From assembly GCA_035574315.1 (NCBI GenBank), contig DATLYW010000021.1:1-64000 (forward strand): DNA of 64,000 nucleotides, in the 5' to 3' direction. The notes below the pieces were generated by a model, which saw only the letters and a program-made list of their open reading frames with translations, did no database searches and was not told the origin of the DNA. Shown piece after piece: positions 1 through 2,618 of this stretch. Position 1 is the stretch's first letter. Each line of letters starts with the position of its first letter. The position numbers and the translations under genes are program-made. Origin of the DNA: Candidatus Zixiibacteriota bacterium (GTDB lineage Bacteria > Desulfobacterota > Binatia > UBA9968).

Positions 1-145
1 GAAGGATCACGAGTTCCTGCTGCGCGGGGATGTCTTCACCAAGGACGTCATCGAGACCTGGCTCGACTACAAACGCAAAAAAGAAGTCGACGCCATCCGC
101 ATGAGACCCCACCCCTGGGAGTTCGCCCTGTACTTCGATATCTGA
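1..145 (+). CDS. glnA: Glutamine synthetase type I, C-terminal end (partial)
   Basis: This is the last 47 codons of a gene that begins before the window, read in the frame starting at base 2 and stopping with TGA at 143-145. The translation contains [12 protein letters not shown], a Lys-rich stretch, and ends in [13 protein letters not shown], which is the characteristic C-terminus of dodecameric glutamine synthetase. The enzyme makes glutamine from glutamate, ammonia and ATP in the cytoplasm. Its presence gives a nitrogen-assimilation context to the amidotransferase and the sigma-54 promoter downstream. The retained end is too short to judge the adenylylation site or active site. Confidence 0.93.
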
Positions 146-1001: not shown

Positions 1002-1191
1002 GGCCCCCTGCCCGTGCGCGGATCCGGACACCAGCTAGCCGAAGCAGCCGGAGCCCCGACAGGGGAAGAGTCCAAAGGGGCGCGGTGGTTTGCTCGCGCG
1101 AAGCTTGAGCGGGCGCTGACCGCATGGAGGCACGACGGCGAAAGTCTACGATCCCGGAAACGCCGCCAAAAGCGCCTGCTGAAAATTTGAC

Positions 1192-1224
1192 CAGCCGGCT
1201 GCCCAAGGCGCGAGCAGCCGGCTG
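1192..1224. promoter_or_regulatory. Paired palindromes, possible enhancer or operator
   Basis: The palindrome CAGCCGGCTG occurs twice without mismatch (1192-1201, 1215-1224). The centres are 23 bp apart, close to two helical turns, and about 75-100 bp upstream of the -24 element of the sigma-54 promoter, which is where enhancer-binding activators commonly bind. Being self-complementary, the two copies could also pair as a 10-bp stem with a 13-nt loop, but no T-tract follows, so a terminator is less likely. Confidence 0.4.
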
Positions 1225-1294
1225 AGCGCGAGTCGACCCTGAGAAAAAGCCTTTTACAATCGAAGAGGTGGAAGCGTTCGAAAAGGCCCGTTGC

Positions 1295-1310
1295 TGGCAC
1301 TTTTATTGCT
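1295..1310 (+). promoter_or_regulatory. Sigma-54 (RpoN) promoter of the porin gene
   Basis: TGGCAC, a 5-bp spacer and TTGCT match the -24/-12 consensus, with GG at 1296-1297 and GC at 1308-1309 exactly 10 bp apart. Transcription would begin near 1321, leaving about 77 nt of leader before the porin ATG. It implies nitrogen- or stress-dependent activation by an enhancer-binding protein. Confidence 0.72.
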
Positions 1311-1397
1311 ATTTGCGCGAGGAAAATTTCTCAATCCGTGGAAGCCCCGGCAAGCAAGGTCTTGTCGGTCGGGTTACGGAGCAGGGGGAGGTCGTCC

Positions 1398-2618
1398 ATG
1401 ACAAAGACGTTGGTAGGCGCACTGTTCCTGGTGGGGTGCGTGGCTTTGGTTCGGGGAGAACTTTACGCCCAGGAAGACAAGCCGCTCGGTCCAGGCTGGC
1501 TTGGCCTTGACGGCAGCGTTGGGCTGCTCGACAGAAAAGTGGCCGAAAGCAAATCGGCGATCGAGAGAGCGCTGGGAATCGGCATCAGCGGTTTTTTGGA
1601 CACCAGCTACACCTGGAGTTCGAATCATCCGCGAAGCCCGGCCAACATCAGCGGCAGGTATTTCGACAAGGACCACGACAAGGTCGTCTTCAACTACCTT
1701 CACCTCGCGGTTGAAAAACCGGAAAAAGACTGGGGAGTCGGCTTTCGCATTTCGGGGGACTTCGGCCGCGGCGGCGAGCTCTTGCGTGAGGCGACGTTGT
1801 GGGGCAATCGCCTCCAGGACGAACCTTCGGCGGAGCTGCGCGAGGCCTATCTCACCACAACGATTCCCCTGGGGGCCGGGCTCGGGGTCAAGGGCGGCCT
1901 GTTCGTGACGACTCACGGCACGGAGATTCTGCCGAACCCCGGGGCGTACAACGACAACATCTCTCGTTCCTTGCTGTTCAACTTCGGTATTCCGTTCCGG
2001 CATCTCGGCATGCTCTTGACCTATCCCGTCCATAAGATTTTCTCGGTCAACGGCGGCGTGGTGACGGGTTGGGACAACCCGAACGACAACAACGGTCAGC
2101 CCTCGGCGATGTGGGGGTTCAGCCTCACGCCGCTCGATCAGTTCGCCCTGGTGAGCAACTTCATGTACGGACCCGAGCAGTTCCACAACAGCGGCAACAA
2201 GCGCTTCACGATGAGCCACGTGGCGACGATCAAGCCGTTCGATCCGCTGGCTGTCACCGTCGAATATACCTACGGGCACGAAGAAAAAGCCTCCCTGGGG
2301 GGGACACGCGACGCGACGTGGCAAGGCGTGGCTGGCATCGTTTCCTATGGGTGGACGGATCGTTTCTCGACCGCGCTGCGCGGCGAGGTCTTCCGGGACC
2401 GCGACGGGACGCGCCTGCTCGGCGATTTCTTCGGAACCCACGCGGATCAAACGCTGGGCGAAGTAACGCTGACGGGGTCTTACAAATTCACCAAGATGCT
2501 GCTCGGCCGGCTCGAGTACCGCCAGGACTGGGCGGACACGCGTTTCTTCAAAAAGCGCGCCACCTCCGCTGACAAGAGCCAGGGAACGATCGCGGCGCAG
2601 CTCATCTACACGTTCTGA
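1398..2618 (+). CDS. Outer-membrane beta-barrel porin (BBP2/OmpL-like)
   Basis: The 406-residue product starts at ATG 1398 behind a GGGGGAGG ribosome site; upstream in-frame codons give no plausible N-terminus. Residues 1-25 form a signal peptide ending near LYAQ. The rest alternates aromatic and glycine-rich amphipathic strands, with features such as GISGFLDTSYTW near the N-terminus, RISGDFGRG, and a terminal aromatic residue (IYTF) typical of BAM-inserted barrels. This matches the putative beta-barrel porin-2 family of diffusion channels. The sigma-54 promoter upstream suggests nitrogen-limited induction, perhaps for uptake of small nitrogenous solutes; the substrate is not visible. A strong terminator follows. 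Confidence 0.75.
   Translation: MTKTLVGALFLVGCVALVRGELYAQEDKPLGPGWLGLDGSVGLLDRKVAESKSAIERALGIGISGFLDTSYTWSSNHPRSPANISGRYFDKDHDKVVFNYLHLAVEKPEKDWGVGFRISGDFGRGGELLREATLWGNRLQDEPSAELREAYLTTTIPLGAGLGVKGGLFVTTHGTEILPNPGAYNDNISRSLLFNFGIPFRHLGMLLTYPVHKIFSVNGGVVTGWDNPNDNNGQPSAMWGFSLTPLDQFALVSNFMYGPEQFHNSGNKRFTMSHVATIKPFDPLAVTVEYTYGHEEKASLGGTRDATWQGVAGIVSYGWTDRFSTALRGEVFRDRDGTRLLGDFFGTHADQTLGEVTLTGSYKFTKMLLGRLEYRQDWADTRFFKKRATSADKSQGTIAAQLIYTF

Follow-up and report, generated by a model that had tools for sequence, protein, structure and literature searches.

Organization of the locus

The window (the whole stretch of 64 kb that was analysed) covers the start of contig C21 in a draft genome of 4.26 Mb. 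Its left edge carries the 3' end of glnA, the glutamine synthetase gene (positions 2–142, forward strand; Pfam Gln-synt_C, 24.4 bits for a cut-off of 24), cut by the contig start so that only the last 47 codons are present. It is followed on the same strand by a class-I glutamine amidotransferase gene (255–1001; PF00117, 71.8 bits) and, after a gap of 396 bp, by the ATG of a gene encoding a BBP2-family outer-membrane porin (1398–2618, forward strand). The initial annotation had placed the porin after glnA: the end of glnA is indeed present upstream, but the immediate neighbour is the amidotransferase gene. The latter also lies between glnA and the porin in locus L091, and after glnA in loci L092 and L093.

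The assembly is broken here, and the contig starts inside glnA, because two glnA copies share identical stretches. The 141 bp at positions 1–141 of the window are identical to G000:C50:11797-11937, contigs C21 and C50 sharing the same glnA end at their edge over exactly 141 bases. Contigs C27 and C31, which carry the two amtB genes, both break off in an identical glnA start, again with 141 bases in common. Very probably, one of the two amtB–glnA units runs on into the window. The assembly itself is indecisive between C27 and C31 as the upstream contig, and synteny favours C27; the order nitrilase–P-II–amtB–porin–glycosyltransferase is found in L086 and L089.

The porin has 406 amino acids, with a predicted 16-strand barrel and an N-terminal signal-like segment. 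Its identity as a BBP2-type porin, proposed in the initial annotation, was confirmed by the match to PF07642 (215.3 bits for a Pfam gathering cut-off of 26.2, over profile positions 2–339 of 339), and it is the only BBP2 protein in the genome. Translation likely starts at ATG 1398 and not at GTG 1338, because of the ribosome-binding-like stretch GGGGGAGG and the signal-like N-terminus. AlphaFold2 predicts 16 long strands, with moderate overall confidence (pLDDT 69.9) and loops too weakly modelled to show an arginine ladder, the substrate-specific constriction of OprP-type porins. The best Foldseek match was OprP (TM 0.58), and the nearest solved structures, OprP, OprO, PorB, DcaP and Omp32, gave TM values of 0.56–0.59 at 11–15% identity. 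The predicted fold thus supports a porin and tells little about its solute. The net charge of the mature protein is near neutral, which is uninformative on this point.

Promoter box and upstream dyads

The sequence TGGCACTTTTATTGCT at 1295–1310 (forward strand) is an exact −24/−12 element of the sigma-54 type (TGGCAC/T-N5-TTGC, with GG and GC at the canonical spacing), as the initial annotation had read it. It is the sole match within one mismatch in the window. Chance gives a mean of 1.24 such matches per 64 kb, so the match by itself is no proof, and the evidence therefore lies in its position before the porin and in its conservation. Genome-wide, exact TGGCAC-N5-TTGCW occurs 24 times vs. 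five in the reversed control, and TGGCAY-N5-TTGC 93 times vs. 15. The initial annotation had made sigma-54 control depend on the presence of rpoN; an rpoN gene was found (215 bits), together with 33 matches to AAA+ sigma-54 activators, of which 27 were strong and six weaker ones were left out.

Conservation was assessed on loci from two sources. The porin was searched in 39 genomes including that of the window, with matches in 22, and a second set comprised 58 named loci, of which 11 overlapped. After removal of one duplicate (L147 = L101), 67 loci were retained, the window counted; 53 were assessable and 14 had too little upstream DNA. The pattern [TC]GGCA[CT]-N5-TTGC was looked for upstream of the porin or, where the porin lies in a P-II/amtB operon, upstream of that operon. 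It was exact in 37 of the 53 assessable loci, where about one was expected, and present with one mismatch in four more; the remaining 12 had no box even at one mismatch. The background density on both strands of the same loci was 0.0344 per kb, i.e. about 0.015 per tested region. In two draft genomes (L097 and L103), stops or frame changes interrupt the porin gene, reflecting either decay or assembly error.

A Pfam search of 145 genomes of the class found BBP2 in 122. A held-out set was drawn from 60 further loci; 13 without a porin match and five duplicates of training loci were removed, leaving 42. The box was exact in 18 of these and within one mismatch in 23 (shuffles, 0.1% exact; reversed sequences, 0/42). 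A dyad (described below) of at least 10 bits accompanied 20 of the 23 boxes, exact or with one mismatch, vs. 1.6% in shuffles. Sigma-54 control of the porin, as initially proposed, is thus backed by the presence of rpoN and by a box kept both in relatives and in held-out loci. No box was found in 19 of the 42 held-out loci, many of them in family f10, where BBP2 genes precede glnA or have an NtrC-like gene nearby and lack a box in the DNA immediately before them. The sigma-54/Ntr link therefore looks like a trait of part of the BBP2 family and not of all BBP2 genes. In seven loci of another family of the class (L283, L286, L288, L302, L305, L307 and L311), glnA follows a BBP2 gene in the same orientation, its 3' end 1.6–2.9 kb beyond the porin, and the porin has no sigma-54 box immediately before it.

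BBP2 homologues of Planctomycetota (L161–L168) carry exact sigma-54 boxes in eight of eight loci, and several occur in tandem pairs. No P-II or amtB matches were found in the sequence stretches around them. A dyad-like word 40 bp from their box was discounted: six of the eight have nearly the same site and seem to form a single clade, so that the word proves nothing.

The dyad came from a palindromic EM search, run on the 220 bp that precede each of 16 boxes in the family. The 17-bp motif (approximately TGCYYA-aantt-TRRGCA) reached a log-likelihood ratio (LLR) of 82.8, vs. 22.6–30.1 in 12 shuffles, and lies 77–135 bp before the box in 15 of the 16 promoters. It was found again independently in 13 promoters of the class (LLR 74.3 vs. 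at most 26.1 in four shuffles) and in nine promoters of Rokubacteria (62.4 vs. at most 24.9 in four shuffles). A second dyad lies 19–23 bp from the first in 12 of 15 family promoters, for a null rate of 5.8%. The spacing is variable, mostly 18–23 bp or 29–33 bp overall and 18–22 bp or 29–33 bp in the other groups, which is near two or three helical turns. For this count, promoters whose best dyad was below 8 bits were dropped (1/16 in the family, 3/9 in Rokubacteria), and the held-out set was thinned by hand to 17 promoters by exclusion of near-identical copies and some weak boxes. By leave-one-out scoring, the L091 porin promoter has a box and no dyad, and the dyads of the L092, L093 and L097 porin promoters are weak.

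Two such sites, together forming a putative enhancer that the initial annotation had not noted, precede the window porin. Site 1, TGCTGAAAATTTGACCA (1177–1193, forward strand), is the best 17-mer in the 64 kb; its leave-one-out score of 14.4 bits was reached by none of 200 shuffles. Site 2, TGCCCAAGGCGCGAGCA (1200–1216, forward strand), scores 10.4 bits, ranks third in the 64 kb and was equalled by five of 500 shuffles of the upstream region. The two are 23 bp apart, about 135 and 112 bp upstream of the inferred transcription start. A 17-bp dyad with TGC/GCA ends upstream of the box, as expected in an NtrC regulon, is thus present, exactly in site 2 (TGC-N11-GCA) and with a CCA end instead of GCA in site 1 (TGC-N11-CCA).

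The two CAGCCGGCTG palindromes reported in the initial annotation are present at 1192–1201 and 1215–1224, 103 and 80 bp upstream of the start of the box. Site 2 overlaps each palindrome by two bases, starting within the end of the first and running just into the second. The palindromes are therefore the arms of a 33-bp inverted repeat (1192–1224; 11-base arms holding both palindromes), unique in the genome and centred on the NtrC-like site, which could form an RNA hairpin.

Nitrogen genes around the porin and the switch shared with amtB

The 93 TGGCAY-N5-TTGC boxes of the genome were scored for the dyad with a matrix trained on other genomes only. A strong dyad was found at three of them: P-II–amtB1 (17.0 bits), the porin (16.2 bits) and amtB2 (16.0 bits); the next box scored 8.8 bits. 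The genome has two amtB genes, and both carry the porin-type box and dyad. Within this one genome, the same site is therefore common to the porin and to glnK–amtB, as is expected of an NtrC regulon.

Nitrogen genes are also frequent close to the porin in relatives. P-II, amtB, nirA or glnA lie within 6 kb in 10 of 15 other loci at 50% porin identity or more, in 23 of 36 loci at 33–50% identity and in 4 of 15 loci below 33%, counts in which many contigs are short. P-II/AmtB is the commonest neighbour among the 36 loci of 33–50% identity; the neighbouring proteins also include NirA and NarK-like proteins. The arrangements include P-II–amtB–porin, amtB–P-II–porin, porin–P-II–amtB–kinase–NtrC-like regulator and amidotransferase–porin–ANTAR regulator–nirA–narK–nasA. 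In L091, L092 and L093 the porin is located inside the nirA–narK–nasA cluster. The link with nitrogen drawn in the initial annotation is thus borne out by the P-II, amtB, nirA–narK–nasA and glnA neighbours and by the enhancer common to the two amtB promoters of the genome.

Two observations concern these neighbours. A response regulator with an ANTAR domain is repeatedly encoded next to the porin or the nitrate cluster (L089, L091, L092, L093 and L095). In L089, L091 and L095 its gene is preceded by a separate box and dyad, which suggests an antitermination layer. In L091, a gene on the reverse strand (L091:12655-14508) encodes a NirA-type nitrite reductase with a C-terminal NirD-like Rieske domain, so that a ferredoxin-type enzyme appears to be fused to the small subunit of the other type.

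The best match to the ntrC model in the genome is a gene on contig C33 (G000:C33), adjoined by a sensor-kinase gene. Its score of 547.2 bits is 11 bits under the curated cut-off of 558.6, so that its naming as NtrC is probable. The 27 strong activator genes compete with this assignment. The activator L002, the one closest to that encoded beside the porin in L098 (46%), is a possible alternative to NtrC.

Proposed role, rival readings and known systems

The locus is best read as encoding an outer-membrane porin of the nitrogen-limitation (Ntr) regulon, dependent on an NtrC-family activator and sigma-54 and made under scarcity to raise nitrogen permeability. We hold this reading with good confidence. 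The box, the paired dyads, their sharing with amtB, their conservation and the gene neighbourhood are computed results, and from them we infer which activator acts and that the porin of this organism is induced when nitrogen is limiting. The solute, which the initial annotation took to be nitrogen-rich, would be ammonium or some other small nitrogen compound. When nitrogen is scarce, a phosphorylated NtrC-family protein, most simply NtrC itself, would bind both dyads. It would then contact sigma-54 polymerase by looping and activate transcription from the 1295–1310 promoter. The porin would be inserted in the outer membrane together with the production of AmtB and P-II, and the raised permeability would feed the transporters of the inner membrane, chiefly AmtB, as well as glutamine synthetase.

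The regulon could be correctly assigned and the porin still serve nitrate, amino acids, urea, amides or general permeability instead of ammonium. This is quite possible: the porin of L091, L092 and L093 lies among nitrate genes, OprP and Omp32, both anion-specific porins, are among the closest folds, and the net charge of the mature protein is near neutral. Against it, P-II/AmtB is the commonest neighbour (23/36 loci of 33–50% identity), and a Kuenenia porin with the same domain is reported to respond to ammonium limitation. Moreover, no NirA was found in this genome (best match, 37% over part of the query), so nitrate is unlikely as the main solute here; a porin for nitrate only is a candidate weakened for this genome.

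A second reading concerns the 33-bp inverted repeat, which might act, perhaps in addition, at the RNA level, by terminating the glnA–amidotransferase transcript or stabilising its 3' end. The repeat lies 190 bp after the amidotransferase stop and has an 11-bp stem, and the RNA fold of 1180–1240 reaches −25.7 kcal/mol (z −2.78). However, the stem has no U run behind it, the palindromes were not found in relatives and the repeat coincides exactly with enhancer site 2, and we regard such a role as unlikely.

It is still less probable, indeed very unlikely, that another enhancer-binding protein reads the CAGCCGGCTG palindromes and ties the porin to a different signal, the direction in which the initial annotation pointed. 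The genome does hold 27 strong sigma-54 activator genes, and the palindromes, spaced by 23 bp (about two helical turns), lie as far from the box as an enhancer would. However, the search of the genome for further copies of the palindrome pair returned this single one, which excludes them as a regulon-wide operator. The pair is absent before both amtB units and did not turn up upstream of 17 other orthologs, one of which (L065) has AGCCGGCT once. The conserved element occupying the same place is the NtrC-like 17-bp dyad, beside and between the palindromes. Finally, a box arisen by chance, with transcription of the porin from a housekeeping promoter, is scarcely credible: one match within a mismatch is expected about every 64 kb, but chance does not account for conservation across genera and classes, the held-out test and the coupling of box and dyad.

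A porin of the Ntr regulon that has the P-II–AmtB promoter type, the same enhancer and often the same operon would suggest regulated outer-membrane entry in low-nutrient bacteria. It gives a testable role to BBP2, a porin family with a structural name only, and the enhancer motif may be used to read the nitrogen regulons of uncultured phyla. A more speculative generalization, which we hold as rather doubtful, is that GlnK and AmtB have a regular third partner, a dedicated nitrogen-scavenging porin, in a number of deep-branching phyla: Binatota-like bacteria, Rokubacteria/Methylomirabilota, Omnitrophota and possibly Planctomycetota. The outer membrane is usually regarded as freely open to ammonium. 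If the generalization were true, the outer membrane itself would limit ammonium uptake in oligotrophs, and the problem would be solved by an NtrC-switched channel, as OprP/PhoE do for phosphate.

OprP and OprO, the phosphate and pyrophosphate porins of Pseudomonas, embody the concept of a porin made when one nutrient is scarce. They share the 16-strand fold and are the closest solved match, but at 12–14% identity (TM about 0.58) and for another nutrient, and they are induced via the phosphate regulon and not by sigma-54. The regulatory region resembles the NtrC/sigma-54 regulon of E. coli and other Proteobacteria (glnK–amtB, glnA) in its −24/−12 promoter, in dyads about 100 bp upstream and in their being common to P-II–amtB. 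The E. coli NtrC box is given in the available text of PMC8743547 as TGCACCAnnnTGGTGCA; the dyad found here has the same length and the same TGC/GCA ends, whereas positions 4–6 are YYA here and ACC in E. coli. The core NtrC regulon comprises glnA, amtB and glnBK, with nas, nirA and narK added in some groups, according to the portion of PMC5343134 consulted. An outer-membrane porin is not among the core members given there, and the word 'porin' occurs 0 times in that paper.

On the regulator side, a precedent is provided by Desulfovibrio vulgaris, in which an NtrC-family regulator binds the ammonium transporter/P-II operon in a gel shift (PMC3333781, from the text available). In Burkholderia cenocepacia, porins are among the NtrC-dependent transcriptome changes of an ntrC mutant; the available text describes them as porins or outer-membrane proteins and does not name BBP2 (PMC5491218). 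The idea of a nitrogen-limitation porin itself has a precedent, since KSMBR1_3177, a BBP2 porin of the anammox bacterium Kuenenia stuttgartiensis, is described in the available part of PMC7438415 as highly upregulated under ammonium limitation, the authors suggesting ammonium influx. The two porins have the same Pfam domain and belong to different phyla, and the comparison is one of domain and of proposed response; 'sigma-54' and 'NtrC' occur 0 times in that paper. In the literature search, this was the sole precedent, and a sigma-54/NtrC-controlled BBP2 porin was found described nowhere. Thus, the component parts (box, dyad and porin) are of known kinds, and what appears to be new is the grouping of a BBP2 porin with P-II–AmtB in a sigma-54/NtrC-type regulon in Binatia-like bacteria and Rokubacteria, with isolated support elsewhere.
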